From an uncultured Alphaproteobacteria bacterium (lineage in GTDB: Bacteria > Pseudomonadota > Alphaproteobacteria > JALCBB01): DNA of 64,000 bases. Position numbers and translations under genes: made by a program. The notes beneath the pieces were generated by a model. That model saw only the letters and a program-made list of their open reading frames with translations. It had not been told where the DNA came from and did not search any database. Positions 6,721 through 57,742 of this stretch are shown here, in pieces. Within the stretch, counting starts at the first letter, position 1. Each line of letters starts with the position of its first letter. The stretch spans positions 167,726 to 231,725 of the forward strand of contig OY279575.1 of assembly GCA_958267355.1 (NCBI GenBank), given 5' to 3'.

Positions 6721-7917
6721 ATGAGTGCAAGCAAAACCAGCAAGCTGAGTCGTAAGGGCAATCGCGAAGGCTTTGCCACGCGAGCGATTCATGCGGGTCA
6801 GCCGCCTGACCCGACTACGGGAGCGATTATGACTCCGATTTACGCGACTTCTACCTATGTTCAGGAGAGTCCAGGTAAGCATCGTGGTTATGAATATTCG
6901 CGATCTGCGAATCCGACTCGCACGGCGTTGGAGACCTGCATTGCCGACTTAGAAGGCGGAGCGACTGCCCGTGCCTTTGCTTCGGGGCTTGCCGCGACAG
7001 CGACGCTATTAGAGTTGCTAGACCATGGTTCGCAGATTGTGGCTATGGACGATTGCTACGGTGGTACCCGTCGCCTTTTTTCTGATGTGCGTGGGCGGAG
7101 TGCGAATTTGTCCTTTACCTATGCTGACTTGTCTGACCCTGCGGCGTTTGCGGCGGTGTGCACTTCTGAGACGAAGATGCTTTGGGTGGAGTCGCCTACC
7201 AATCCGCTTTTGCGTCTTGCTGACTTGGCGGTTTTGTCTGAAGAGGCGAAGAAGCGGAATATTATTACGGTATGCGACAATACTTTTTGTTCTCCGTGGG
7301 TGCAGCGGCCACTGGAGCTGGGTTTTGATATTGTGATGCACTCGGCGACAAAATATCTTGGTGGCCATTCGGATGTAATTGCTGGTGTGGCGATTGTTTC
7401 GGCGGATTGTCCAGACCTTGCTGAGCGGTTGGGTTTTCTTGCGAATGCTGTGGGTGGAGTTTTGAGTCCTTTTGACTCGTTTTTGCTTTTACGTAGTTTG
7501 AAGACACTTCCTTTAAGAATGGAGCGGCATTCGGCGAATGCGTTAGCGATTGCGCGTTACTTAGAAGATCACTCTGCGGTTTCGCGGGTGTATTACCCAG
7601 GCTTGGAGAGTCACCCGCAGCATGCTTTAGCAAAGCGGCAGATGCATACCTATGGCGGAATGGTTAGCGCAAGTTTAAAGGGCGGATTAGACGCGGCGAC
7701 AAAATTTCTGCAGCGTACGCGGCTTTTTTCTTTAGCTGAAAGTCTTGGCGGAGTGGAAAGTTTGATTGAACACCCTGGGATTATGACACATGCTTCTGTG
7801 CCACCTGAAACGCGGGCGGCTTTGGGTATAGATGATGGGCTTGTGCGCTTATCGGTTGGCGTGGAAGATTTAGACGATTTGCTGAATGATTTAGCCCAAG
7901 CCTTGAGCGGCTTGTAA
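6721..7917 (+). CDS. Cystathionine gamma-lyase / Cys-Met metabolism PLP enzyme
   Basis: Fold-type I PLP enzyme of 398 residues in the MetB/MetC/MetY/CGL family. Seen: the PLP lysine Lys211 in SATKYLGGHSD, YEYSRSANPTR near the N-terminus, VESPTNP, and the C-terminal GGVESLIEHPGIMTHASVP that is typical of gamma-lyases and gamma-synthases. With the upstream beta-synthase-like gene, a gamma-lyase splitting cystathionine to cysteine, 2-oxobutyrate and ammonia is most likely. A cystathionine gamma-synthase or O-acetylhomoserine sulfhydrylase role is not excluded, particularly since MetA is encoded nearby. The N-terminal 15 residues (Ser/Lys rich) are not part of the family core. Confidence 0.87.
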   Translation: MSASKTSKLSRKGNREGFATRAIHAGQPPDPTTGAIMTPIYATSTYVQESPGKHRGYEYSRSANPTRTALETCIADLEGGATARAFASGLAATATLLELLDHGSQIVAMDDCYGGTRRLFSDVRGRSANLSFTYADLSDPAAFAAVCTSETKMLWVESPTNPLLRLADLAVLSEEAKKRNIITVCDNTFCSPWVQRPLELGFDIVMHSATKYLGGHSDVIAGVAIVSADCPDLAERLGFLANAVGGVLSPFDSFLLLRSLKTLPLRMERHSANALAIARYLEDHSAVSRVYYPGLESHPQHALAKRQMHTYGGMVSASLKGGLDAATKFLQRTRLFSLAESLGGVESLIEHPGIMTHASVPPETRAALGIDDGLVRLSVGVEDLDDLLNDLAQALSGL

Positions 7918-8100
7918 TCTAATTTGAAGTTAGCTTGCAACGGGCTTGAAGATAGTTTGAAGTTAGCTTTAAATTAATTTGAAAATGGTTTGCAGTTAGC
8001 TTTAAATTAGTTTGAAGCTAGTTTGCAGTTAGCTTGCAACGGGCTTGAAGATAGTTTGAAGTTAGCTTTAAATTAGTTTGAAGATGGTTTGCAGTTAGCT
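7918..8100. repeat. Minisatellite between convergent transsulfuration and cysE genes
   Basis: About five rounds of TTTGAAGTTAGCTTTAAAT and TTTGCAGTTAGCTTGCAAC type units fill the whole gap. The last unit overlaps the stop codon of cysE (TTAGCTTGC on the forward strand), so the array abuts or derives from a gene end. No terminator hairpin with a T-run is seen. Confidence 0.9.
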
Positions 8101-8835
8101 TGCTTTTTGCGAGTCGGATTGTGAGTCGGATTTTTGGCTTTTATTGTTAGTTTTGCTCTGCTGAACTTGTTTTACTTGTTTTTCTATGGCTTCTACGCGT
8201 TGCTTGAGTGTATGGAAGGCGGCGAGAGTTGGGTCAGGCAGGTCAGCACTCGGAGTGCCATAGGGGTGAAAGGTTTGATCAACGGGATGGGTTCCGACGA
8301 TACGGGCGGGAATTCCTACTACTGTCACGCCTTCTGGCACGGGTTTGAGCACAACGGAGTTGGCACCGACGCGGGCGCAATCGCCGATGGTGATGGCTCC
8401 GAGCACTTGCGCTCCCGAACCAATCACGACTCCATCGCCGAGCGTTGGATGACGCTTTATGCCGCGTTGTTTGCGGCTATTTTCCGAAGGAGATAACCCG
8501 CCCAGAGTCACTCCCTGATACAGGGTTACATCATCACCGATTTCTGAAGTTTCGCCGATGACTACGCCGCTTCCGTGGTCAATGAAGAAGTGTTTGCCGA
8601 TTTGTGCGGCGGGATGGATTTCTACTCCTGTGAGCCAGCGGGCGATTGTCATGAGCAGTCTGGCGAGCAGGCGCAGGCGCAGGCGGTGTAGGCGCGAGGC
8701 CAAGCGATAGAAGACGACTGCATGGAATGATGAAGTTGCGAGTGCGACTTCTAGCCGACTGTTTGCTGCGGGGTCGCGTTCTAGGGCGGCGGCTAGATCG
8801 CCGCTGACTTCTTGCCACAGGGAGAGTTTTTGCAT
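8095..8835 (-). CDS. cysE: Serine O-acetyltransferase
   Basis: Transfers acetyl from acetyl-CoA to L-serine, giving O-acetylserine for cysteine synthesis; trimeric left-handed beta-helix enzyme of the cytosol. Seen: N-terminal helical region, then hexapeptide repeats from about residue 80 with the active-site His in FIDHGSGVVIGET, LYQGVTLGG, RHPTLGDGVVIGSGAQVLG and VPEGVTVVGIPARIV. I start at the ATG at 8835 (MQKLSLWQEVSGDL); the open frame runs further upstream, but that part is repeat sequence and the shadow of the next gene. No ribosome site is visible before this ATG. The C-terminus ends in a Ser/Gln/Asp repeat encoded by 12-nt units. Confidence 0.9.
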   Translation of the reverse strand: MQKLSLWQEVSGDLAAALERDPAANSRLEVALATSSFHAVVFYRLASRLHRLRLRLLARLLMTIARWLTGVEIHPAAQIGKHFFIDHGSGVVIGETSEIGDDVTLYQGVTLGGLSPSENSRKQRGIKRHPTLGDGVVIGSGAQVLGAITIGDCARVGANSVVLKPVPEGVTVVGIPARIVGTHPVDQTFHPYGTPSADLPDPTLAAFHTLKQRVEAIEKQVKQVQQSKTNNKSQKSDSQSDSQKAS

Positions 8836-10160: not shown

Positions 10161-10647
10161 TTACCCCCTCGGGCCGCGCAGGTGGTCTTGCGTTTCGCGC
10201 CCTTTAGGGCGCGGATAGCAAGCCAGATGCGCAAAGGTGCCGCCCCACAGGCGGCACCGCGAAGCGGCGGCGTTAGCCACCGCGAAGCGGCGGCTTTAGC
10301 CACGGAAAAAAGCGGGGGTCAAACTCGCGTAGCGAGTTTGGGGGGTGGGTTGGGCGCGGGCGAAGCCCGCGAGGGAATTAAAGAAAGCCCGCAAATCCCT
10401 GTACCCTGCCCCTAAATTAAAGGATTAAAAAGCTGTGGCTCGTCAGAGCCACGCAAAGGGACGCGCTCAGCGCGTCCCCGATTGCGCCCTTTAGCGCGAG
10501 CCTTGGCGAGCGCGTGAGCGCAATCTGCGCGAAGCGCGATTTATTTTTACCTTTTCTACTTTACGTTTTCTCCAGCCAGACGGATATATACCCCCACCCT
10601 TACTGATTACTTACTTCTCTCTTCTTTTTCTTAATACGGGAGCTATT
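10161..10647. repeat. Gene-free mosaic of hairpin modules
   Basis: Contains GGCGGCACCGCGAAGCGGCG-type palindromes, the module GGGGGTCAAA with stem CTCGCGTAGCGAG then TTTGGGGGGTGGG near 10314-10345, GGGCGCGGGCGAAGCCCGC at 10349-10367, and GGCTCGTCAGAGCC and GGGACGCGCTCAGCGCGTCCC palindromes near 10437-10480. No coding frame shows conserved protein features. Confidence 0.8.
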
Positions 10648-10812
10648 AATAATTCACCCCCCTAGGGGCGAGCTGTGGCGTTAGCCACGGCGAGGGCAAA
10701 GGGGGGTTAAGGGTTGCGAGCGTCCGCCACGGCGAGCTTGCCGAGCCGTGCAAAGCACCCGCAAGGGTGCATAAAGTGCCGCGAAGCAAGCCTTGGGGGG
10801 GATGGGCGGGAA
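10648..10812 (+). repeat. 165-bp modular repeat, copy 1 of a direct pair
   Basis: Scaffold TAATAATTCACCCCCCTAGG, hairpin slot holding GTGGCGTTAGCCAC, then GGGCAAAGGGGGGTTAAGGG, a second hairpin group (GGCGAGCTTGCC, GCACCCGCAAGGGTGC) and the end GGGGGATGGGCGGGAA. Nearly identical to 11072-11236 except for the slot hairpin. Confidence 0.9.
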
Positions 10813-11071
10813 ACAAAAGGGTTGCGAAGCAACCCTCACCCCCTCGGGACGGAGGGGGTCAAAATTTGCGTAGCAAATTTTGGGGGGTGGGGTGGGCGCG
10901 GGCGAAGCCCGCGAGGGAATTAAAGAGTGGTTGCCCGCAGGGCAACCTCCTATTCATCCAAAGCTCAACTAGCCTTACCCCTTTACTTTTAAGAACACGG
11001 CTAATTAATTAGCCGTCCCCATAGGGGCTAGACTTATATTCTCTTTTCTTTTTTTCTTTTAGACGGACATC
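10813..11071. repeat. Hairpin modules between the direct repeats
   Basis: AGGGTTGCGAAGCAACCCT and CCCCCTCGGGACGGAGGGGG palindromes, the slot module GGGGGTCAAA with stem ATTTGCGTAGCAAAT and TTTGGGGGGTGGGG near 10855-10890, another copy of GGGCGCGGGCGAAGCCCGC, and GGTTGCCCGCAGGGCAACC at 10929-10947. No gene seen. Confidence 0.85.
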
Positions 11072-11236
11072 TAATAATTCACCCCCCTAGGGGCTGTGTC
11101 TGCCGTAGGCAGGCACAGGGCAAAGGGGGGTCAAGGGTTGCGAGCGTCCGCCACGGCGAGCTTGCCGAGCCGTGCAAAGCACCCGCAAGGGTGCATAAAG
11201 TGCCGCGAAGCAAGCCTTGGGGGGGATGGGCGGGAA
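11072..11236 (+). repeat. 165-bp modular repeat, copy 2 of a direct pair
   Basis: Same scaffold as 10648-10812, ending 35 bp before the MmeI-family gene, but the slot holds a different hairpin: GTGTCTGCC, GTA loop, GGCAGGCAC at about 11096-11116. The 110 bp after the slot match copy 1 almost base for base. Confidence 0.9.
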
Positions 11237-11271
11237 GGCGGCGGGCGCAATTCTAGTCTATATTGTGCCTT

Positions 11272-14094
11272 ATGAGGCTTAGCTGGAATGAAATCCGCGC
11301 AAACGCGGCGGAGTTTGCGGAGACCTATAAAGACGCGACTCGCGAGCGTGGTGAGACGCAAAGTTTTTACAACGATTTTTTTGCGATTTTTGGAACGAAG
11401 CGTCGTTCGGTGGCTCGCTACGAACAGCATGTAGAAAAGCACTTTGGCAAAAAGCACGGTTTCATAGATTTATTCTGGCCAGGCATGTTGCTGGTAGAGC
11501 AGAAAAGCGCGGGACGTGATTTAACCAAGGCGAACGAACAGGCACTAGAATATTTTGACTTGTTAAAAGAACATGAAAAGCCGCGTTTTATTCTTGTTTC
11601 TGATTTTCAAAACTTCGTACTTCACGACCTAGACACGGATGAGTCGTGGAGTTTCAAGCTCGCCGATCTGCCAAAACATATAGAGCGGTTTGGCTTTATG
11701 ATGGGAGTGTTTAAACGTTCCTATAAAGACCAAGACGAAGTTAATATTTTTGCTGCTGAATTGATGGGTTCTTTGCACGATAGGTTTGAAGAAAAAGGGT
11801 ATCTTGGCGATAAGTTGGAGCGTCTATTGATGCGCCTGTTGTTTTGTTTATTTGCGGAAGACACAGGCTTATTTCCCCGCGACTCTTTCTTGGATTTAAT
11901 TGAAATCTGCATTGAGAATTCGGCTGACTTTGGTGCGACTCTCACCCGTCTTTTTGAGGTATTGGATACCCCTGAAGATGAGCGCGAGCAAGATTTGAGC
12001 GAAGAGTTAAAAGCTTTTCCTTATGTGAATGGCGGGCTTTTTGAAGGGCACTTGCAGATGCCCATCTTTACCAAGGATATGATGCAGACTCTTAGGCTTG
12101 CCGCCATTCATAATTGGAGCAGTATTTCCCCTGCGATTTTTGGCGCACTTTTTCAATCGGTGATGGATAAAGACCGCCGCCGCAAGCTTGGCTCACACTA
12201 CACGACCGAGCAAAACATTTTAAAAACAATTGGCCCGCTCTTTTTGGATGATTTACGCGCCGAATATAATCGGCTTCAAAGCAAAGCCCGAAAGAATGAA
12301 CGCAAGAAGGCTTTGCTTGATTTTCAAAAGCACCTAGCCTCTCTGACCTTTTTTGATCCTGCCTGTGGCTGTGGCAACTTTTTGGTGATTGCCTATCGTG
12401 AATTGCGCCGACTAGAGATGGAGCTACTTCGTAGAATTTATATAGAAGAAGGTGACGCTTTTTTAGTAGATGATTTTTCGCTTCTGGATATTAACCAATT
12501 CTACGGCATAGAAATTGAAGAATTCCCTGCCCGTATTGCTGAAACCGCAATGTGGATGATGGATGCACTTATGAACCAAGAATTGAGCGAAGCACTTCAC
12601 CGCTCGTACGAACGCCTGCCCTTACGCGAGTCAGCCCATATCTACCACGGCGATGCCCTAGAAAAAGATTGGAGCGAACTTCTTCCTGCTAAAAATTGCT
12701 CTTATCTTTTCGGCAACCCACCCTTTGTCGGTTATAGCCTACGGACAGATAAGCAAAAGCAACAAATGGACGCAATCGCCAAAAAACACGGGAGCGGTCG
12801 TGCCTTAGATTATGTAGCGTCTTGGTTTCTGAAGGCAGGTGAATACCTTAAGGACAATCGCAAAATTAGAATTGCCCTTGTCGCCACGAACTCCATTACT
12901 CAAGGCGAGCAGGTCGCACAACTCTGGTCTGTTCTCTACGATCGCTATCAATTAGAAATTACTTTTGCCCACCGTACTTTCGCTTGGGGGTCAGAAGTAA
13001 AAGGCAAAGCAAATGTTCATGTTGTCATCATCGGTTTGACACACCAAACCGAAGCTTCAAAACAACGCCATTTGTTCTTTTACGAAACCCCTAAAAGTGC
13101 TCCCGAAGAACTTTCCTGCACTGCTATAACGCCCTATCTAACTGATGGTAGCAACTTACAGAGTCCACACTTAGTTATCAGAAAAACAACTAGCCCCCTG
13201 AGTGGATTTTCTGAAATGCTTAAGGGTACGCAACCAACCGATGGCGGACATTATATCTTCAGCGAAGAAGAGAAAAGTATCTTTTTAAGAGAAGAGCCAA
13301 ATGCAGAGTCTCTATTTAAGCCTTATGTGGGTGCTGAAGAATTTCTTAATGGAGAAATCCGCCACATCCTTTATCTTGAAAAAGCTGAACCAAATCAGTT
13401 AAGCAACTTGCCAAAAGTGCGCGAGCGAATTGTTGCAGTTCGAGAACACCGTAAGAAAAGTAAAAAGAAACCCACAAGAGAAATGGCGGAGAGACCACAA
13501 GAGTACGACTCAAGCATAATTCCAAAAAAACCTTTTCTTTTTGTGCCTGGCATAAGCTCTGAGCGAAGATATTATGCACCTATCGGCTGGCTTGAACCCC
13601 CAACAATCCCATCAAATAGGGGCTATGTAATAGAGGGAGCACCCAAGTCACTTTTTGCCCTGCTTACTTCGGCAATGCATATGACTTGGTTGCGTGCAGT
13701 CTGTGGACGCTTAACTAGTCGTTATGTCTACTCAATAGGAGTGGTCTACAACACTTTCCCCTTACCAACCGAACTTGGCAAATTTGGCAGTGATGAGGCA
13801 CAGAAAAAGTTAGCGCATTTAACCCCCTTGGCAGACACGATTTTAGAAACCCGTGCCAATCATAAGGGTTCTACCTTGGCACAACTCTACGACCCTGACT
13901 TCATGCCGCCCGACCTACGCAAAGCCCACCAAGCCTTGGATAAAGCCGTAGATAAACTCTACCGCCGAACCCCCTTCACAGGAGAAGCCGATCGCCTAGC
14001 CCTGCTTTTGAAGCTGTACGAGCAACAGCGAGCTGCCCGTCTTATCACTGAGGCGAAACCCAAACGCGCCCGCCGCCGCCGCCTAAAATCCTAA
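11272..14094 (+). CDS. MmeI-family Type IIL restriction-modification enzyme
   Basis: Single-chain enzyme that both methylates adenine on one strand of its target and cuts about 20 nt away. Domain order seen over 940 residues: N-terminal nuclease with D66-x9-E76-Q-K78 (IDLFWPGMLLVEQK), matching the MmeI D-x9-EXK active site; a helical spacer; an adenine methyltransferase with motif I DPACGCGNF at 362 and motif IV NPPF at 482, preceded by GSHYTTEQNI; then a target-recognition region (about 650-850) and a basic tail (KPKRARRRRLKS). The ATG at 11272 is preferred to an upstream TTG at 11263. TATATT lies 8 nt before it, and no ribosome site is seen, so a leaderless transcript is possible. Followed by the conserved cassette carrying the coiled-coil gene. 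Confidence 0.92.
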   Translation: MRLSWNEIRANAAEFAETYKDATRERGETQSFYNDFFAIFGTKRRSVARYEQHVEKHFGKKHGFIDLFWPGMLLVEQKSAGRDLTKANEQALEYFDLLKEHEKPRFILVSDFQNFVLHDLDTDESWSFKLADLPKHIERFGFMMGVFKRSYKDQDEVNIFAAELMGSLHDRFEEKGYLGDKLERLLMRLLFCLFAEDTGLFPRDSFLDLIEICIENSADFGATLTRLFEVLDTPEDEREQDLSEELKAFPYVNGGLFEGHLQMPIFTKDMMQTLRLAAIHNWSSISPAIFGALFQSVMDKDRRRKLGSHYTTEQNILKTIGPLFLDDLRAEYNRLQSKARKNERKKALLDFQKHLASLTFFDPACGCGNFLVIAYRELRRLEMELLRRIYIEEGDAFLVDDFSLLDINQFYGIEIEEFPARIAETAMWMMDALMNQELSEALHRSYERLPLRESAHIYHGDALEKDWSELLPAKNCSYLFGNPPFVGYSLRTDKQKQQMDAIAKKHGSGRALDYVASWFLKAGEYLKDNRKIRIALVATNSITQGEQVAQLWSVLYDRYQLEITFAHRTFAWGSEVKGKANVHVVIIGLTHQTEASKQRHLFFYETPKSAPEELSCTAITPYLTDGSNLQSPHLVIRKTTSPLSGFSEMLKGTQPTDGGHYIFSEEEKSIFLREEPNAESLFKPYVGAEEFLNGEIRHILYLEKAEPNQLSNLPKVRERIVAVREHRKKSKKKPTREMAERPQEYDSSIIPKKPFLFVPGISSERRYYAPIGWLEPPTIPSNRGYVIEGAPKSLFALLTSAMHMTWLRAVCGRLTSRYVYSIGVVYNTFPLPTELGKFGSDEAQKKLAHLTPLADTILETRANHKGSTLAQLYDPDFMPPDLRKAHQALDKAVDKLYRRTPFTGEADRLALLLKLYEQQRAARLITEAKPKRARRRRLKS

Positions 14095-14114: not shown

Positions 14115-14537
14115 ACATACCCCCCACCCAACTGCCAAAGCTGTCTCCTACCCCCGTGCTGGACGCACGGGGCAGTCGCCCGCTTTGGTTTCCTGTCTCT
14201 ATTTTCTGCCTTTATTCTCTTTACCTCTCCCTTATGTTTGTCTTTTTTATATAGAGGGGGACTATCTAATTAACACCCCCCTAGGGGCGAGCCACACGAA
14301 GTGTGGCGAGGGCAAAGGGGGGTCGCAACTCACAAGCCCGCTAGGGCGCAGTGAGTGCGGGGGGGATGGGTGGGAAGGCCACAGGAAATTTATTTTTTGG
14401 CTTGAGCTCTACAACTCCCCCTAATTTTGCCAAATCGGAGCGAAAATAATTTGAATCCGCCTGAAAATGGCTCATTTCCTATATAGGAGAATTTCGCAAC
14501 TCTATTAGCCCCAAACCCCCAAAACAAGGATTACCCC
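14115..14537 (+). repeat. Conserved non-coding part of restriction-gene cassette, copy A
   Basis: Starts within about 20 bp of the MmeI stop and runs to the coiled-coil start. It matches the reverse complement of 25211-25628: GTGCTGGACGCACGGGGCAG, the TTGGTTTCCTG and TTATGTTTGTC stretches, the CCCCCCTAGGGG scaffold with slot hairpin CCACACGAAGTGTGG (14292-14306), and a 160-bp block before the gene. The last block looks more conserved between copies than synonymous sites of the gene. Confidence 0.9.
14477..14488. promoter_or_regulatory. Perfect 12-bp palindrome upstream of coiled-coil gene, copy A
   Basis: TCCTATATAGGA is its own reverse complement and lies 50 bp before the start codon. The same palindrome is kept at 25260-25271 before the second copy. 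It could be an operator or the -10 region of the promoter. Confidence 0.5.
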
Positions 14538-15467
14538 ATGCACAGCACTCGCCCAGCCGACCAGCCAACGACAGCCGCCAAGCTGCAGGAAGTGCGCCAA
14601 TACTTGTCAGACCTAGACCCCGAACTACTGACAGAATCCCTAGCCAACCACTACGCGGGGCAGGCGAGCAAGAGTGCCGAAATCCGCAGGGCTAACCTTG
14701 CCCAACTCCTGCCCCATCTCAACGACAAACTAGAAGACGAAGTCAAAGCACTCCTGTCGCTCCAACGCTCTATACAGGAAGAAGACGAAACCAACGCCAA
14801 AGAGCGCGCTTTAGGCAGGGCTTTTAACGCCCAACGAAGACGAGACGAACGCCAGCTCATAATGTTCAACTTAGAGTTATTACGCCTAAATCCTATGCCC
14901 GAGGGCTTGACCGACCAAGAACTTCGCCACCACCAAGAGATTACGACCGAGACGATGAACAGGTTAACCGAAGCCTTAGAAAATATGCGCACCCGTGGAA
15001 AGCTTGTAGAGCCTGAAACCTTTGACAAAAAGCAAACGATTGCCCCCCGCCGCAACCTGCGGAGAGAAGAAGCGATACGCCGTACCGAGATGATCCGCGA
15101 GCTGACCCAGTTCTGCGAGCTGGTAGAACAAGTTGTAGCAGGAAAGAAAATCGTTGATGACGCGACTATGGCAGAGCTAATTGACCGCGCTCAGGCGTAT
15201 TTATCCCCTGACCAGCCTGTAAAGGAATACAGCGAGACCGAAGACTACCGCTCCACGCGCCGTTTGATTGACAATAGTTCTTCACACGAGAAGAAGATTG
15301 CGCTCCGTGTAGAAGCCGAAGACCGCTACGCCGGCATGGATTGGAGCAACCCCTACGAAAAGAAGCCTGACGCACCCAAGAAAGAACCCAGTGCCATCTA
15401 TGTAGACGGAGGCAACATCCCCAACCCCAAGCTCTACCCCCCAAAACCCAAATCCCAAAGCCCTTGA
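14538..15467 (+). CDS. Coiled-coil protein of unknown function, copy A
   Basis: Not recognised. 309 residues, highly charged, with no signal peptide or membrane span, so probably cytosolic. Residues about 45-150 and 165-220 are long amphipathic helices rich in Glu, Arg, Leu and Gln (for example QRRRDERQLIMFNLELLRLN). The C-terminal 50 residues are proline- and lysine-rich and contain GMDWSNPYEKKPD and SAIYVDGGNIPNPKLYPP. AAGGA lies 8 nt before the ATG. The protein differs from the copy at 24281-25210 at about 18 of 309 positions, although many codons differ at third positions, which indicates purifying selection. Each copy follows a restriction-modification gene on the same strand by about 430-440 bp, so a role linked to those enzymes (inhibitor, chaperone or accessory factor) is a guess from context. 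Confidence 0.85.
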   Translation: MHSTRPADQPTTAAKLQEVRQYLSDLDPELLTESLANHYAGQASKSAEIRRANLAQLLPHLNDKLEDEVKALLSLQRSIQEEDETNAKERALGRAFNAQRRRDERQLIMFNLELLRLNPMPEGLTDQELRHHQEITTETMNRLTEALENMRTRGKLVEPETFDKKQTIAPRRNLRREEAIRRTEMIRELTQFCELVEQVVAGKKIVDDATMAELIDRAQAYLSPDQPVKEYSETEDYRSTRRLIDNSSSHEKKIALRVEAEDRYAGMDWSNPYEKKPDAPKKEPSAIYVDGGNIPNPKLYPPKPKSQSP

Positions 15468-24280: not shown

Positions 24281-25210
24281 CTAAGGGTCTTGGCCTTTCG
24301 GCTTTGGGGGGTAGAGTTTTGGGTTGGGGATGTTGCCTCCGTCTACATAGATGGCACTGGGCTCTTTTTTGGGCTTGTCGGGTTTCTTTTCGTACGGGTT
24401 GCTCCAATCCATGCCAGCGTAGCGGTCTTCAGCTTCTACACGGAGCGCAATCTTCTTTTCGTGTGAAGAACTATTATCTATCAAACGCCGCGTAGAACGG
24501 TAGTCTGCGGTCTCGCTGTACTCTTTGATATGTTCGTCTGGGGATAGATACGCCTGAGCGCGGTCAATTAGCTCTGCCATAGTCGCGTCATCAACGATTT
24601 TCTTTCCTGCCACAACTTGTTCTACCAGCTCGCAAAACTGCGTCAGCTCGCGGATCATCTCAGTGCGGCGTATGGCTTCTTCTCGCCGCAGGTTGCGGCG
24701 GGGGGCAATCGCTTGCTTCTTGTCAAAGGTTTCAGGCTCTACGAGCTTTCCGCGGGTACGCATATTCTCTAGGGCTTCGGTTAACCTGTTCATCGTCTCG
24801 GTCGTAATCTCTTGGTGGTGGCGAAGTTCCTGCTCGGTCAAGCCCTCGGGCGTAGGGTTGAGCCGTAATAACTCTAGGTTGAACATTATGAGCTGGCGTT
24901 CATCGCGGCGGCGTTGGGCGTTAAAAGCCCTGCCAAGGGCGCGTTCTTTAGCGTTGGTTTCGTCTTCTTCCTGTATAGAGCGTTGGAGGGAAAGTAGGGC
25001 TTTAACCTCGTCTTCTAGTTTGTCGTTGAGATGGGGTAGGAGTTGGGCAAGGTTTGCCCTGCGGATTTCCGCGCTTTTGTCCGCCTGTCCTGCGTAGTGG
25101 TTAGAAAACGCTTCCGCCAGTAGTTCAGGGTCAAGGGCGGACAGGTATTGGCGCACTTCCTGCAGCTTGGCGGCTGTCGTTGGCTGGTCGGCTGGTCGGG
25201 CGGCGTGCAT
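24281..25210 (-). CDS. Coiled-coil protein of unknown function, copy B
   Basis: Inverted paralogue of the gene at 14538, 309 residues, about 94% identical by eye. Differences cluster at the N-terminus (HAARP for HSTRP; LAEAFSNHY for LTESLANHY), around residue 228 (PDEHIKE for PDQPVKE) and at the last residues. The central helical region is almost unchanged. Many synonymous third-position differences exist, for example CGCCGCCGC for CGAAGACGA at QRRRDE. It follows the 1079-residue restriction enzyme gene by 430 bp on the same strand. AAGGA precedes the ATG. Homology to copy A stops at the stop codon; the next gene, the OsmC fusion, is convergent and 31 bp away. Confidence 0.85.
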   Translation of the reverse strand: MHAARPADQPTTAAKLQEVRQYLSALDPELLAEAFSNHYAGQADKSAEIRRANLAQLLPHLNDKLEDEVKALLSLQRSIQEEDETNAKERALGRAFNAQRRRDERQLIMFNLELLRLNPTPEGLTEQELRHHQEITTETMNRLTEALENMRTRGKLVEPETFDKKQAIAPRRNLRREEAIRRTEMIRELTQFCELVEQVVAGKKIVDDATMAELIDRAQAYLSPDEHIKEYSETADYRSTRRLIDNSSSHEKKIALRVEAEDRYAGMDWSNPYEKKPDKPKKEPSAIYVDGGNIPNPKLYPPKPKGQDP

Positions 25211-25628
25211 GGGGTAATCCTTCGTTTTGGGGTTTGGGGGCTAATAGAGTTGCGAAATCTCCTATATAGGAAATGAGCCATTTTCAGGCGGATTCAAATT
25301 TTTTTTGCTCCGATTTGGCAAAATTAGGGGGAGTTGTAGGGCTCAAGCCAAAAAATAAATTTCCTGTGGCCTTCCCACCCATCCCCCCCAAAGTCTGCTA
25401 CGCAGACTTTGACCCCCCTTTGCCCTCGCCACGCTTCGCGTGGCTCGCCCCTAGGGGGGTGTTAATTAGATAGTCCCCTCTGTATAAAAAAGAAAAACAT
25501 AAGGGAGAGGTAAGGAGAATAAAGGCAGAGAATAGAAACAGGAAACCAAAGCGGGCGACTGCCCCGTGCGTCCAGCACGGGCGCAGGAGACAGCTTTGGC
25601 AATGGGGTGGGGGTTATATATCTACCCT
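25211..25628 (-). repeat. Conserved non-coding part of restriction-gene cassette, copy B
   Basis: Reverse complement of 14115-14537, beginning about 12 bp past the stop of the Type ISP-like gene. It carries the palindrome TCCTATATAGGA at 25260-25271, slot hairpin CCACGCTTCGCGTGG (25429-25443) in the CCCCTAGGGG scaffold, and the second slot hairpin GTCTGCTACGCAGAC (25393-25407), where copy A has an unrelated stem. Outside the slots the two copies align almost continuously. Confidence 0.9.
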
Positions 25629-28880: not shown

Positions 28881-29328
28881 CGCTGGAAAGCCTCCGACAC
28901 AAAACGAATCTCTAAAGGCAACTTTACTACGAAATCAGCGAGCTTGCGCCGCTTTTTATGCGCCCCTGCGGGGCGCGTTCCCTCACGCTTGGGGCAAGCC
29001 CCAAGCGTGCCCACCCCTCCCCCCGCGTTGCCTGCGGCAACGCGACCCCCTCCGTCCCGAGGGGGTATGCGGCTCTGCGAGCCGCACTTTTCCCGCCATC
29101 CCCCCCAAAGTCTGCTCCGCAGACTTTGACCCCAGCTTTTTTACGGCGGCTTGCACCGCCTTTTTGCACGGCTCGGCAAGCTCGCCGTGGCTTCGCCGCC
29201 ACTTCGTGGTGCGTGCCCTCGTGCCTGCCTACGGCAGACACAGCCCATAGGGGGGAATAAAAATATTCCCTCTGTTCTAGAGAGAAAAGGTTTGGCGAAT
29301 TCCGTGAGAGAGAGTAAATTCCCGCAGT
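28881..29328. repeat. Hairpin block between divergent restriction genes
   Basis: From about 28945: GCCCCTGCGGGGC, CGCTTGGGGCAAGCCCCAAGCG, CCCCCTCCGTCCCGAGGGGG, GCGGCTCTGCGAGCCGC, the slot module CCCCCCCAAA with GTCTGCTCCGCAGAC and TTTGACCCC (29103-29133), GGCGGCTTGCACCGCC, and a degenerate CCCATAGGGGGG scaffold near 29247-29259 with slot hairpin GTGCCTGCCTACGGCAGACAC. No coding frame is supported. Confidence 0.85.
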
Positions 29329-35790: not shown

Positions 35791-35944
35791 AAATAATTTA
35801 CCGCCAATCCTTGCTGCAAAACCTCCACCTTCTAAAACAGCTCCACGCCCATTCTGGTCTTGCATTCTAGTTTCGTGTTAATTTCTCTCCCAGTAGATCG
35901 CGCACCGCGTAGAGCGCGTGCAGGGTGCATATCGTGTGCTTTGC

Positions 35945-36303
35945 TCCGCTAAAGAAAAGCCAAGCCACAAGAAAAGCCAAGCCCACAAGAAAAGCCAAGC
36001 CCACAAGAAAAGCCAAGCCACCAAAAAAGCCAAGCCCACAAGAAAAGCCAAGCCACAAGAAAAGCCAAGCCACAAGAAAAGCCAAGCCACAAGAAAAGCC
36101 AAGCCCACAAGAAAAGCCAAGCCCACAAGAAAAGCCAAGCCACCAAAAAAGCCAAGCCCACAAGAAAAGCCAAGCCACAAGAAAAGCCAAGCCACAAGAA
36201 AAGCCAAGCCACAAGAAAAGCCAAGCCACAAAAAGCCAAGCCACAAGAAAATCCAAGCCACAAGAAAAACCAAAACCACCAAAAAGCCAAAGCCACAAGC
36301 CAG
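35945..36303. repeat. Minisatellite reading into ridA
   Basis: About 20 copies of a 16-18 nt unit (GAAAAGCCAAGCCACAA and variants) end eight bases before the ridA start codon. One forward frame is open through the array and continues into ridA, giving a KKSQATRKAKP-repeat leader, and the reverse strand reads as hydrophobic repeats. I regard both as repeat artefacts. Confidence 0.92.
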
Positions 36304-36310
36304 CAAGACA

Positions 36311-36730
36311 ATGACTCATCTCCGCATACGAAAGTTCAACACAGCGAACACCTATCCCGAGCAAAAGCTCAACAACGACCTGTGCCAAGCCGTAGTCACA
36401 CAAGGCGGAAAAATCATCTGGCTACGGGGACAATGTCCGCAAAACCTTGACGACGCAAAAAACATCAGCAGCTCAGACCCCGCAGAACAAACCCACAAAG
36501 TCATGCAAAATATCCAACAACTCATAGAAGAAGCAGGCGGCTCAATGAATCATCTCGTCAAAATCGTAGTCTATATCACCAACATCAAACACCGCGAAGC
36601 CGTATACCAAACCATCGGCAAATATATACAAGGAGTGCATCCCGTCTCCACAGGACTCGTCGTGTCAGCCCTAGCCCGCCCAGAATGGCTCGTAGAAATA
36701 GACGCCACCGCCGTAATACCCGAACCCTAA
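36311..36730 (+). CDS. RidA-family enamine/imine deaminase
   Basis: Hydrolyses reactive 2-aminoacrylate or other imines formed by PLP and amine-oxidising enzymes; homotrimer in the cytosol. 139 residues from the ATG at 36311 (MTHLRIRKFN). The family core GGSMNHLVKIVVYITNIKHR and PVSTGLVVSALARPEWLVEIDATAV is visible; the Arg that anchors the substrate carboxylate is probably the one in ALARPEWLVEID. The reading frame extends upstream through the minisatellite, so a long basic repeat N-terminus cannot be strictly ruled out. The DUF1028 gene follows at 24 bp. Confidence 0.85.
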   Translation: MTHLRIRKFNTANTYPEQKLNNDLCQAVVTQGGKIIWLRGQCPQNLDDAKNISSSDPAEQTHKVMQNIQQLIEEAGGSMNHLVKIVVYITNIKHREAVYQTIGKYIQGVHPVSTGLVVSALARPEWLVEIDATAVIPEP

Positions 36731-40662: not shown

Positions 40663-42732
40663 GTGCCCGACTCCCGTTACAGCATTCTGTTTGAACCAAT
40701 GCAGATCGGTCCCGTAAAAGCCAAAAATCGCTTTTATCAAGTCCCACACTGCAACGGTGGCGGCTACCGCGACCCATCAGCCGCCGCCGCCATGCGCGGC
40801 ATAAAATCAGAAGGCGGCTGGGGAGTCATATTCACCGAACAATGCGAAATGCACCACTCTTCAGAAATCACTCCCTTTATTGAGCTGCGCCTGTGGGAAG
40901 ATAAAGATATTCCGCTTCTGCAGAATATGGCGGAGAAGATGAAAGCCCACGGAGCACTCGCAGGAATCCAACTCGCCTATTCAGGTATCAACGGACCAAA
41001 CCTATATTCACGCGAAGTTCCACTCGCTGTCTCGGCGATGCCAATCCGCACCTTCACCAATGACCCTGTACAAGCCCGCGCTTTAGATAAGTCTGATCTT
41101 CAGGACTTGCGGCGTTGGTTCGTCAACGCGGCGAAACGCTCCAAGGCAGCAGGGTTTGATTTAATTTGCCTCTACGGAGCCCACGGCTTCGGTATCTTCC
41201 AACATTTCCTAAGTCGCGCCACCAACCAACGCACCGACGAATACGGCGGAAGCCTAGAAAATCGCTCGCGCTTCATCAACGAAGTTGTGGCAGATCTACG
41301 CGATGCAGTAGGCGATACCATGGCTATCACCTTGCGCGTCAGCCTAGACGAAACAATCGGAGACTTGGGCTTCAGCAACGCCGAAGTGCGTGACTTCATC
41401 GCGCTGAATCACGATCTACCTGACCTTTGGGATCTAGCCCACGGAGCTTGGGAAGATTGCTCCGCCACTTCGCGCTTCAAAGAAGAAGCCGCACAGGAAG
41501 ACTTGGTGCGGGGTATCCGTGAGCTTACCGATAAGCCTGTTGTTGGCGTGGGGCGCTTTACCTCTCCTGATGTGATGGCAAGAATGATACGCAGTGGCAC
41601 ACTGGATTTCATCGGCTGTGCAAGACCTTCCATTGCTGACCCGTTCCTGCCGAAGAAGATTGAAGAAGAAAGAGTAGAAGATATCCGCGAATGCATCGGA
41701 TGCAACATCTGCATCACAGGCGATATGACCATGTCAATCAGTCGCTGCACGCAAAACCCTACCTTCATGGAAGAATGGCGCAAGGGCTGGCACCCAGAGC
41801 AAATGAATCCGAAAGGCGAAAGTAACACAGTGCTTGTCGTCGGAGCAGGTCCAGCAGGGTTAGAAGCCACACGCGCACTCGCCGAACGCGGATACAATGT
41901 TGCACTCGCCGAAGCCACCAAAACACTCGGCGGTAGAGTCACCCGCGAGCGCACACTTCCAGGCCTGTCGGCTTGGGGCAGAGTCGCCGATTATCGCGAA
42001 CACCAGATACGGCAAAAATCTAATGTTGAGATCTATCCCGATAGCGCACTGGACGCAGATGCGCTTTTGGAATTCGGCTTTGAACATATCTGCATCGCCA
42101 CAGGAGCAAAATGGCGGCGCGATGGAGTCAGTCGCCAGCATCTTGTCCCCTTTGCTATGGACGCGGCTATGCCGCTCTACACGCCCGATGACTTAATGGA
42201 AGGAAACAAGCCCACAGGTAAAGTTATCATCTACGACGATGACCACTACTATATGGGCGGAGTCCTAGCTGAACTTCTTGCCCAAGATGGGTGTGAAGTT
42301 ACGCTGATTACGCCTGCGGCTTATGTTTCCGAGTGGAGTGTTAATACGCTAGAACAACACGCCATACACAAAAAACTCGCCGAAATGGATGTGCAAATTG
42401 TGCTGAACCGTGGCGTAGTGGAAATCAGTAAAGATTATGTTGTATCTGATTGCTCCTTTACAGGCACAAAACAGAACTTCGCTTGCGATGCAGTGGTACT
42501 GGTCGCTTCGCGGATGGAAAACAATTCCCTGTACCTAGACCTAAAAGCCCGCACAGCAGATTGGACAGACGCAGGAATCAAATCCGTCAAAATCATCGGT
42601 GATGCCAATGCGCCAGGTCCGATTGCTTGGGCGACTTACGCAGGCCATCGCTACGCCCGCGAGCTGGATTGCAAAGATATCGGCGATGACTTGCCCTTCC
42701 GCCGTGAAATCACCCAGCTCGCCGCTTTATAG
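40663..42732 (+). CDS. Amine dehydrogenase of the trimethylamine/histamine dehydrogenase family
   Basis: Iron-sulfur flavoprotein of 689 residues from a GTG start. N-terminal TIM barrel with Cys30 in NRFYQVPHC, the site of the 6-S-cysteinyl FMN link in trimethylamine dehydrogenase; 4Fe-4S ligands Cys344, 347, 350 and 362 (CIGCNIC, then SISRC), matching the 345/348/351/364 set; then an ADP-binding flavoprotein domain with VLVVGAGPAGLEATRAL near 390. The substrate bowl has Gln60, Trp263 and Asp354 where trimethylamine dehydrogenase has Tyr60, Trp264 and Trp355. As I recall it, histamine dehydrogenase has the Gln/Trp/Asp set. Dimethylglycine demethylases (DgcA) belong to the same family. No electron-transferring flavoprotein gene is in the window. 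Confidence 0.87.
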   Translation: MPDSRYSILFEPMQIGPVKAKNRFYQVPHCNGGGYRDPSAAAAMRGIKSEGGWGVIFTEQCEMHHSSEITPFIELRLWEDKDIPLLQNMAEKMKAHGALAGIQLAYSGINGPNLYSREVPLAVSAMPIRTFTNDPVQARALDKSDLQDLRRWFVNAAKRSKAAGFDLICLYGAHGFGIFQHFLSRATNQRTDEYGGSLENRSRFINEVVADLRDAVGDTMAITLRVSLDETIGDLGFSNAEVRDFIALNHDLPDLWDLAHGAWEDCSATSRFKEEAAQEDLVRGIRELTDKPVVGVGRFTSPDVMARMIRSGTLDFIGCARPSIADPFLPKKIEEERVEDIRECIGCNICITGDMTMSISRCTQNPTFMEEWRKGWHPEQMNPKGESNTVLVVGAGPAGLEATRALAERGYNVALAEATKTLGGRVTRERTLPGLSAWGRVADYREHQIRQKSNVEIYPDSALDADALLEFGFEHICIATGAKWRRDGVSRQHLVPFAMDAAMPLYTPDDLMEGNKPTGKVIIYDDDHYYMGGVLAELLAQDGCEVTLITPAAYVSEWSVNTLEQHAIHKKLAEMDVQIVLNRGVVEISKDYVVSDCSFTGTKQNFACDAVVLVASRMENNSLYLDLKARTADWTDAGIKSVKIIGDANAPGPIAWATYAGHRYARELDCKDIGDDLPFRREITQLAAL

Positions 42733-43235
42733 GGGCTGTACAGCCACTCACAGCCACACAGAGCCGCTTGGAGCGTTGGGGGGCTACTTTGGGCAATCAG
42801 GGCAGCTTAGAGCCACACAGAGCCATATAGAGCGATATAGAGCCACTCACAGCCCCATAGAGCCACTCACAGCCCCATAGAGCCGCTTGGAGCGTTGGTA
42901 GGCTACTTTGGGCAGTCAGGGCAACTTAGAGCCACACAGAGCCATATAGAGCCACTCACAGCCCCATAGAGCCACTTACAGCCCCATAGAGCCACTCACA
43001 GCCACACAGAGCCGCTTGGAGCGTTGGTAGGCTACTTTGGGCAATCAGGGTAGCTTAGAGCCACACAGAGCCATATAGAGCGATATAGAGCCACTCACAG
43101 CCCCATAGAGCCACTTGGAGCGTTGGTAGGCTACTTTGGGCAGTCAGGGCAGCTTAGAGCCATACAGAGCCATTTAGAGCCATATAGAGCCACACAGAGC
43201 CACTCACAGCCCCATAGAGCCCACAGCAGGAGACC
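42733..43235. repeat. Long higher-order minisatellite before second argE
   Basis: About 500 bp of CATAGAGCCACTCACAGCCC and CACACAGAGCCATATAGAGC units with a longer unit superimposed: GCTTGGAGCGTTGG recurs near 42765, 42884, 43013 and 43112. No unique spacers of constant length exist, so it is not a CRISPR array. GCAGGAGACC precedes the next gene. Confidence 0.93.
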
Positions 43236-43240
43236 AAACC

Positions 43241-44404
43241 TTGGACTTAGTCTTATCCGCCCTAGAACGGCTTGTCGGCTTCAATACAGTCAGCAAGCAC
43301 TCCAATGCCGCCTTGATGGACTACGTAGAAACCTTCTGCCGCGAACGGGGTGCAACCATTCAGCGGCTTCCCGCCACGCCAGCAGAACCCAACACAGAAG
43401 GACAAAGCGGCTTAATCGCCCGCTTTGGTCCCGACGAAGCAGGCGGAATCCTGCTATCAGGACACTCCGATGTCGTGCCCACAGACGGACAGAAATGGCA
43501 CTACCCCGCCTTCACCCTGACAAGAAAAGACTCCCGACTCTACGGACGCGGCACCACCGACATGAAAGGTTTTCTCGCCTGTATGCTGGCAGCTGGAGAT
43601 ATCGCTTCGCGCTCCAAGCTCACCAAGCCGCTAACTCTGGTTTTTTCCTACGATGAAGAAATTGGCTGCGTTGGCATGCAGGCAATGAAATCAAAGCTAA
43701 GTAATTTGCTCCGCCAGCCGCGCCTGTGCCTTGTCGGTGAACCCACAGGAATGCAGGTGGCACTGGGTCATAAAGGCAAGACTGCACTCCAAGCCCAATG
43801 TACAGGACAAGCCGCACATTCAGCCCTGGCTCCGAACTTTGTTAATGCACTCCACCTGGCTGGAGATTTCATCACCGCAATCCGCAAACTACAAAACTGG
43901 TTCAAAGAAAATGGAGCGCAAGACTCAGCCTATACAATTCCGTACACAACCCTACATATCGGCAAGCTTAACGGCGGCACAGCACTAAACATCGTGCCCG
44001 ACTCTGCAACCCTAGACCTAGAATACCGCTACCTGCCCGATGATGGCGAAGACGCAATTTTCTCTCGTCTTAGCAAACTGGCAGAAGAAACTTCCAAGCC
44101 CTTCAAAACCCAATGGACAGAAGCCGCAATCACTCTAACCCGTGGCAATTCCTATTCGGGCTTTAGCTTGGCTCCGACTGCAGACACAGTACAGCTTGCC
44201 CTCAACCTGTCAGGACAAAACACCACCACAAAAGTTGATTTCGGAACCGAAGCAGGAATATTAACAGAACTCAATATTCCTACCATCGTGTGCGGACCCG
44301 GCTCTATGGCACACCAAGGACACAAGCCCGACGAATACATAGAATTAGAGCAGTTGCAATCCTGTATGATAATGCTTAACCGCGTTGTTGAATCCCTAAC
44401 CTAA
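43241..44404 (+). CDS. argE: Acetylornithine deacetylase-like M20 peptidase, copy 2
   Basis: 387 residues from a TTG start with AGGAG 8 nt upstream. Zinc and catalytic residues are intact: His75 and Asp77 in SGHSDVVP, Asp107 in GRGTTDMKG, Glu139/Glu140 in YDEEIG, Glu in GEPTGMQ, and the terminal His in GSMAHQGHKPDEY. It is a paralogue of the gene at 2752 but clearly diverged. Placed between the amine dehydrogenase-family gene and aguB, it could deacylate N-acyl polyamines or amino acids rather than acetylornithine; this is inferred. Confidence 0.83.
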   Translation: MDLVLSALERLVGFNTVSKHSNAALMDYVETFCRERGATIQRLPATPAEPNTEGQSGLIARFGPDEAGGILLSGHSDVVPTDGQKWHYPAFTLTRKDSRLYGRGTTDMKGFLACMLAAGDIASRSKLTKPLTLVFSYDEEIGCVGMQAMKSKLSNLLRQPRLCLVGEPTGMQVALGHKGKTALQAQCTGQAAHSALAPNFVNALHLAGDFITAIRKLQNWFKENGAQDSAYTIPYTTLHIGKLNGGTALNIVPDSATLDLEYRYLPDDGEDAIFSRLSKLAEETSKPFKTQWTEAAITLTRGNSYSGFSLAPTADTVQLALNLSGQNTTTKVDFGTEAGILTELNIPTIVCGPGSMAHQGHKPDEYIELEQLQSCMIMLNRVVESLT

Positions 44405-46602: not shown

Positions 46603-46990
46603 TCTAGCGATTGACTCACCGACTTGCCTAGCAACTAGCCCAACGATTAACCCAGCGACTGACACAGCAACTAGCCCAACGATTAACTCACCGCTTCACC
46701 GAACCAACAAACTAACCAACTAACCCAGCGATTAACTCACCACTTCACCGAACCAACAAACTAACCAACTAACCCAGCGATTAACTCACCACTTCACCGA
46801 ACCAACAAACTAACCAACTAGCCCAGCGATTAACTCACCGCTTCACCGAACCAACAAACTAACCAACGAGCCCAGCGATTAACTCACTGCTTCACCGAAC
46901 CAACAAACTAACCAACTAGCCCAGCGATTAACTCACCGCTTCACCGAACCAACAAACTAACCAACGAACCCAGCGATTGACTCATCCATT
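46603..46990. repeat. 49-bp minisatellite between potA and potB
   Basis: About six copies of a 49-nt unit, GATTAACTCACCGCTTCACC then GAACCAACAAACTAACCAAC plus TAGCCCAGC; starts at 46681, 46730, 46779 and onward are exactly 49 nt apart. Shorter degenerate units precede them from 46603. Near-identical copies indicate recent expansion. No gene. Confidence 0.95.
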
Positions 46991-47033
46991 CACGAACCAA
47001 CCAACGCGCAGAAGACAGCATCAAGGCAAGCAA

Positions 47034-47972
47034 ATGGCAGGCGGAGCAACCATAGAAGGCAGTAACACCACCGCGACCTACGAACAGGCGCGCACATGGC
47101 TTCTGTTGCCCGCTTGGATAACCCTAGCGGTCTTGGTGCTAACGCCTGTTCTGCTTATGCTGGTCTATTCGTTCTTGACCAAAGAATTTCGCGGTGGAGT
47201 CATCTGGGAATTTAGCTTTGCCGCCTACGAGCAATTCTTCTGCGATCGCGGACTCTTCGGAGATGATCCATGCAGTATGGAATGGACATACATTAACATC
47301 TTCTGGCGGTCTATATGGCAAGCGGGTCTCGCAACACTTCTATGCCTGTGTATTGGCTTTCCGACTGCGTATTTTATTGCAACACGTCCTGAACGGGTTC
47401 GCCCGATGTGGGTATTTCTTATCACCATTCCCTATTGGGTTAATTTGCTTATCCGTACTGTTTCTATGCGCTTTATGTTGCGCGAAGAAGGCCCAGTTAA
47501 TAACTTCCTGACTTGGACTCACATCATTGACGAACCCATACAGATGATTAACACCAACTTCGCCGTACAAGTCGGTTTATTCTATTCCTACCTGCCGTTT
47601 ATGGTTCTGCCAATTTATGCCGCTGTTGAACGCTATAACTTTACCTTAAGCGAAGCCGCCGCAGATCTGTACGCAACCAAATGGGTAATCTTGCGGCGGG
47701 TGTTAATTCCAACGGTCAAGCCCGGAGTTATCGCAGGATGCATACTTGTCTTTGTGCCTTCACTCGGAGCCTTTCTAGCCCCTGACCTACTCGGCGGAGC
47801 CAAAAACTTTATGATCGGCTCGTTGATTGAAGAACAGTTCAAAGGCAACGCTGGCAACTGGCCATTCGGAGCTGCCGCTTCCATGATTTTGCTTTCGTCG
47901 GTGCTGGTTTTGTTGATGATCTATGCGCGGTCGCAGGTGCGTCCGAGGCGTGTGCATAGCGAAGGAGCATAA
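47034..47972 (+). CDS. potB: Spermidine/putrescine ABC transporter, permease
   Basis: 312 residues from the ATG at 47034 ([18 protein letters not shown]); the frame is open for 19 codons further upstream into the repeat. Six membrane spans typical of PotB/PotH are visible, the first at about 22-43 ([21 protein letters not shown]). The ABC-contact [20 protein letters not shown] lies near residue 210. The next gene starts 4 bp after the stop. Confidence 0.93.
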
Positions 47973-57580: not shown

Positions 57581-57742
57581 AACTTAGAACTTTCCCTTCT
57601 CTCCCCCCTGTTCTCTATGGGGACTGTTATTAGATTCACCCCCCTAGGGGCGCGAGTGGGCGTAATAAAGCTGGGGTTAAGTGTGCTAAAGTGGGGAGTA
57701 GGGTAACTGGGGGACGGGGGAAGGTTATAAGGGAAGAAGGTG
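57581..57742. repeat. Gap with half of the CCCCCCTAGGGG scaffold
   Basis: GATTCACCCCCCTAGGGGCG at 57632-57652, followed by GCGAGTGGGCGTAATAAAGC and G-rich sequence; the rest of the mosaic module is missing. No terminator-like hairpin after guaA. Confidence 0.75.

Follow-up and report, generated by a model that had tools for sequence, protein, structure and literature searches.

Mosaic palindromic repeats carrying exchangeable hairpins in an invariant scaffold in an alphaproteobacterial genome

The window analysed here is a stretch of 64,000 nucleotides (C1:167726-231725) from a single-contig source genome of 1,859,045 bp (1.86 Mb), the contig being referred to as C1. Around 11 kb it carries two near-identical direct repeats, which a preliminary description had reported to be unrelated at one place only, a slot filled by a different palindrome in each. 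The two copies indeed share 107 identical bases on the right, bar one T/C difference, and TAATAATTCACCCCCCTAGGGGC on the left, and differ solely at the slot, with GTGGCGTTAGCCAC at 10675 in the first and GTGTCTGCCGTAGGCAGGCAC at 11096 in the second. The same scaffold holds other palindromes elsewhere in the window, including CCACACGAAGTGTGG at 14292 and CCACGCTTCGCGTGG at 25429, and further slot types on the minus strand at 29221 and 37655, as had also been stated. Where a single variable slot per scaffold had been described, we found two, and the AT-rich leader and the linker are exchangeable as well. The features of the window are as follows.

2660-2763, 7883-8101, 35917-36316, 42709-43241 and 46619-47059: several unrelated arrays of tandem repeats, unit length 10-49 bp
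10316-10350, plus strand: solo slot-2-type module GGGGGTC-AAACTCGCGTAGCGAGTTT-GGGGGGTGGG
10645-10812, plus strand: element copy 1, comprising the end of the leader, the scaffold, slot 1, a slot 2 that carries nested hairpins, and the tail
10656-10663, plus strand: copy 1, 5' arm ACCCCCCT of the fixed 8-bp helix, with the 3' arm AGGGGGGT at 10700-10707 (from sequence, folding and invariance in 15 aligned copies)
10670-10693, plus strand: copy 1, slot 1 GAGCTGTGGCGTTAGCCACGGCGA, type A, GTTA loop
10709-10794, plus strand: copy 1, slot 2, a type g hairpin with a nested hairpin pair in its head
10795-10810, plus strand: copy 1, G-rich tail GGGGGGGATGGGCGGG
10856-10890, plus strand: solo slot-2-type module with AAAATTTGCGTAGCAAATTTT
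10997-11028, plus strand: truncated upstream unit, palindromic leader ACGGCTAATTAATTAGCCGT and CCCCATAGGGGC, without slots
11070-11236, plus strand: element copy 2
11081-11088, plus strand: copy 2, 5' arm ACCCCCCT, with the 3' arm at 11124-11131 (from sequence and folding)
11095-11117, plus strand: copy 2, slot 1 TGTGTCTGCCGTAGGCAGGCACA, type B, GTA loop
11133-11218, plus strand: copy 2, slot 2, type g with nested hairpins
11263-14094: MmeI-type restriction-modification gene, one of two copies (the other at C1:271560-274415)
14275-14370, plus strand: element with slot 1 of type A (CACACGAAGTGTG) and slot 2 of type i
14538-15467, plus strand, and 24281-25210, minus strand: two copies of a 309-aa orphan gene with 11 more in the source genome
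25378-25460, minus strand: element with slot 1 of type A bearing a compensated change (CACGCGAAGCGTG) and slot 2 of type b
29091-29255, minus strand: element with scaffold CCCCCCTATGGGC, slot 1 of type B, a long linker and slot 2 of type b with a GGA loop
37589-37690, minus strand: element with slot 1 of type C (GCGAGTGAGCGTAGCGAACGAGC) and slot 2 of type g
57639-57651, plus strand: scaffold and truncated slot 1

Folding with RNA energies gives the following layout of a unit: an 8-bp helix formed by ACCCCCCT and AGGGGGGT, whose arms are invariant across 15 aligned copies, encloses slot 1 and is followed by the slot-2 hairpin and the G-rich tail. When the 15 short-linker copies were aligned, the invariant columns ACCCCCCTA(G/T)GGGC, GGGCAAAGGGGGGTC and GGGGGGG were found to be separated by variable blocks. 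In the aligned copies the bases flanking the slot helices are AGGGGC/GGGC and TC/GG, with slot 2 lying between GGGGTC and GGGGGGG. Slot 1 comes in five hairpin types plus truncated forms, slot 2 in about nine types, and the AT-rich leaders, which sit just upstream of the invariant start, in at least 14. Two slot-2 types are also found in a form with a hairpin pair of ~50 nt, the same in both cases, nested within the head, and pairwise extension showed that the element ends differ between copies.

The scaffold CCCCCCTAGGGGC is not confined to a few sites, since 29 exact copies occur genome-wide compared to none for a reversed control, and with up to two mismatches allowed the window contains 14 matches where 1.3 would be expected. 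The stretches that were analysed in detail amount to ~23% of the genome and include every one of the 29 exact scaffolds and 21 slot-2 modules detected genome-wide. A covariance model of the repeat unit identified 33 places in the source genome and none in 20 relatives, and no copy of CCCCCCTAGGGGC was present in 40 relatives, including the only genome of the same family. A longer scaffold pattern gave no match in GTDB or viral contigs and the element gave none in phage and plasmid records, collections that may omit a few records close to the source genome; on the lack of matches in phages, plasmids and viral contigs, a phage or plasmid origin was rejected. Elements occupy all gene orientations, 3 of 39 lying antisense to the genes on either side, and we therefore rejected the reading that they form a fixed 5' leader of genes. 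One divergent, solitary copy (C1:639045-639147) has decayed slots. Examination of GC skew in the source genome revealed no clean skew. The scaffold repeat is a genome-specific family of about thirty copies, a finding that is real and larger than had been reported.

Self-complementarity is kept while the slot sequence changes, as originally claimed, and partner bases within one hairpin type change in concert. Single-stem pairing in slot 2 reached 0.95 of the maximum compared to 0.63±0.08 for shuffled sequences, and in slot 1 it reached 0.73 compared to 0.59±0.08. Genome-wide, 21 of 21 slot-2 modules are palindromic, with a control value of 0, and every cell of the aligned set of 21-nt slot-2 sequences is paired, three pairs having changed on both sides. 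Across the 15-copy alignment 92.6% of cells pair and 37 cells are changed on both sides, giving a covariation score of 0.319 compared to 0.106 when shuffled (reached by 0 of 500 shuffles) and at most 0.102 when slid; these cells are not independent substitutions, because many reflect the swapping of a few types. Slot 1 pairs less perfectly than slot 2, the perfect loop-proximal stems of types C and E being just 2 bp long, and the C-type stem appears to run on through tandem G.A mismatches. Among the 2x2 internal loops next to stems with a GNA cap, tandem GA/GA is the most frequent and is found in five distinct contexts.

The hairpin loops follow a strong bias. Counting distinct stems in the intergenic DNA of the analysed stretches (~23% of the genome), 58 of ~144 triloop hairpins carry a GNA loop, where 12.5% would be expected (p about 5e-17). 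All four bases occur at the N position (GAA 23, GTA 17, GCA 11, GGA 7), and a C-G pair closes 43 of the 58. By copies, GNA accounts for 117 of 158 intergenic triloops (74%) compared to 17 of 91 in genes (19%), while its share is 3 of 41 (7%) in the same-family genome and 3 of 28 and 7 of 48 in two other relatives (7-15% overall). Tetraloops are mostly GCAA (17 distinct). Together with the scaffold counts and the covariation, the GNA excess ruled out a chance origin of the scaffold, loops and pairing. According to Yoshizawa et al. (1997), as cited in PMC6479982, C(GNA)G hairpins are an extraordinarily stable class of DNA mini-hairpin, and the loop and closing pair of the repeat caps fit this class. 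As the GNA loops lie on one strand, they fix which strand folds. GCAA is also one of the GNRA loops favoured by RNA, so that DNA folding is favoured, not proven, and we infer that DNA is the folding molecule. Non-Watson-Crick pairs in the stems (7 G.T and 4 A.C) are too few to separate RNA from DNA.

The hairpins assort as modules. The 25 full units represent 24 distinct combinations of leader, slot 1, linker and slot 2, a count that leaves out the row at 79150, an artefact whose slot 2 is part of the unit that follows. There are 17 distinct pairs of slot 1 with slot 2 compared to 15.8±1.3 after shuffling, and the pairing looks indistinguishable from random assortment. Pairwise extension from the scaffold ends mostly at module edges, right after GGGGC, slot 1 or GGGGTC. 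The duplicated MmeI-type loci at 178.8 kb and 271.4 kb match in their flanks and in slot 1 but have entirely different slot-2 sequences; whole hairpins have been exchanged between identical flanks. Separately, the two MmeI-type genes are near identical at the 5' end and more diverged over the remainder (78% over 3.1 kb), which suggests specificity exchange. Cassette replacement and selection for structure with free sequence had been put forward as alternatives. Both patterns are present, and the swapping may be driven either by DNA copying or by selection on an RNA.

To produce this pattern, a process must both swap entire hairpins between short common blocks and keep the stems perfect. Our preferred reading, to which we assign a probability of about 50%, is that these are non-autonomous, transposase-less mosaic palindromic repeats, reshuffled by short-homology recombination or by template switching at single-stranded DNA hairpins. 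Hairpins would fold wherever replication forks or repair expose single-stranded DNA, and the polymerase would stall there and switch template; alternatively, short-homology recombination might proceed through the common GC blocks of 12-20 bp. Hairpins would as a result be copied between sites, slot contents swapped, hairpins nested in the heads of other hairpins and stems re-perfected. Template switching in DNA replication creates and perfects hairpins (PMC8794818) and would account for the perfection of the stems; the hairpins themselves would be exchanged between copies by template switching or by short-homology recombination. The template-switch hairpins described previously likewise have perfect stems and multi-base compensatory changes made in one mutational step, but they are known from the histories of RNA genes and not from a dispersed, hairpin-exchanging family (PMC8794818). 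We propose that strong hairpins favour their own copying and that this maintains the repeats; persistence would then be selfish rather than by way of a known host function.

The main rival, though on balance unlikely, is a multicopy structured non-coding RNA, in which the leader would be the promoter, transcription would start near CACCCCCC, the RNA would fold into helix P1 with the slot-1 hairpin and into the slot-2 hairpin, and structure would be selected while sequence is free. Such an RNA agrees with the consistent folding of one strand and with a fold predicted from RNA energies, but the repeat has no Rfam match, Rfam models having identified only two tRNAs in the window, and a known RNA family was thereby rejected. 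The stems covary, although a DNA-level process yields the same pattern, and the helix arms are invariant while whole domains are swapped at random. AT-rich leaders just upstream of an invariant start would suit promoters, yet the orientation of the elements is independent of genes. GCAA loops are common, yet G.T is not enriched over A.C, on small counts, and the family is missing from the one same-family genome. Given the gene-independent orientation and the decayed lone copy at 639 kb, a selfish repeat fits better than a conserved RNA.

As a kind, the repeat joins the mosaic palindromic repeats. REP/BIME sequences and REPINs (GTAG, CGTC) are likewise short, dispersed intergenic palindromes combined in mosaics, whereas the present hairpins are interchangeable within a fixed scaffold and obey a GNA loop rule. 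The foot of the palindrome bears neither a GTAG nor a CGTC tag in the aligned copies. The REP-associated transposase reported missing from the window is also missing genome-wide, since the RAYT-type Y1 transposase (Y1_Tnp, PF01797) has no match in the source genome compared to matches in five control genomes. The CGTC REPs are also without a transposase (PMC3733652), so that the missing Y1 alone is not decisive against a CGTC REP. With neither a GTAG foot nor a Y1 transposase, nor an integron integrase beside an array among the genome's two tyrosine recombinases, the repeat is not a REP/BIME or an integron array, nor is it a known RNA family.

RAYTs bind REP hairpins, and the elements might similarly be miniature transposons mobilised in trans, with an unrecognised enzyme binding the GNA hairpins, a reading we consider more doubtful. 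Copies are dispersed in unrelated flanks, with nesting, and the hairpin cap is uniform, but Y1_Tnp is missing, no dedicated transposase for the repeats was identified in the source genome, and transposition alone does not explain slot exchange. The 309-aa orphan gene is often found just downstream of an element, and its 13 dispersed copies, which are 92-98% identical, have the same ~200 bp upstream within unrelated flanks. The protein has no Pfam, PHROG or PADLOC match, was not found in 384 other genomes of the class and is all-helical in a model of low confidence, which shows no nuclease-like fold; on the lack of a family match and this model, we found no support for it as the mobilising enzyme. 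An improbable further reading is that dedicated, as yet unrecognised machinery exchanges the hairpin cassettes between scaffold sites, with the C(GNA)G hairpin in single-stranded DNA, and not its sequence, as the feature recognised. If true, such machinery would constitute a combinatorial cassette system without an integrase.

Two further mechanisms have very little probability. Spread by reverse transcription, with retron (RT-Toprim) single-stranded DNA seeding the hairpin cassettes, would match the DNA-stable type of the caps and the presence of a sole reverse transcriptase of RT-Toprim type with a plausible msr-msd bounded by perfect 13-bp inverted repeats. Retrons, however, are common defence systems, and the retron RNA and the elements have no common sequence beyond 12-16 nt, on which ground the retron was rejected as a cassette source. 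The retron-like locus itself lies at C1:883044-885248 on the minus strand, the apparent msr-msd non-coding RNA being just upstream of the RT-Toprim protein. Equally remote is cassette exchange by a site-specific recombinase, as at integron attC sites: the hairpins do fold from one strand and assort modularly, but the genome has only two tyrosine-recombinase matches (C1:1106822 and C1:1825155), as expected for XerC/XerD and neither near an array, and the breakpoints fall at several positions of the scaffold, not at a single one.

Parallels to transposase-less mosaic palindromic repeats exist outside bacteria. The nested palindromes of Volvox carteri organelles, in the excerpt of PMC2670323 on which this comparison draws, are likewise intergenic, lie inserted within each other and have stereotyped 3-5-nt loops; they differ in being organellar and in having TAAA/TTTA loops, that excerpt describes no scaffold with swappable slots, and it gives their mechanism as unresolved. 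The hairpin and double-hairpin elements of sponge and fungal mitochondria likewise consist of one or two intergenic hairpins, but their stems are conserved and their loops vary, whereas here the loops are constrained and the stems vary (PMC2800124). The fungal parallel drawn in the preliminary description is a fair analogy and not a homology. Hairpin promoters of bacteriophage N4 resemble the present hairpins in their short stems and 3-nt loops and are extruded from DNA.

As far as a limited literature search found, neither swappable slots in an invariant scaffold nor the GNA rule has been described for bacteria. How transposase-less palindromic repeats such as the CGTC REPs and the mitochondrial hairpin elements originate and stay perfect is an old open question. 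Here the pieces can be counted: the frame is fixed, the stems form a small repertoire that assorts at random, and a single loop rule identifies the strand that folds. The DNA-stable GNA cap may be the trait under selection.

Two further observations were made elsewhere in the genome. A second scaffold, GCCAAAGCTG[TG]CTC[CG]T ... GGGCAGTCGCC, is present in 15 copies with 10 distinct slot contents (for example at C1:79445, 181875, 709611 and 1754282). In addition, a reading frame on the minus strand is open through all 15 kb of C1:850001-865000, and the corresponding protein would therefore be at least about 5000 residues long.
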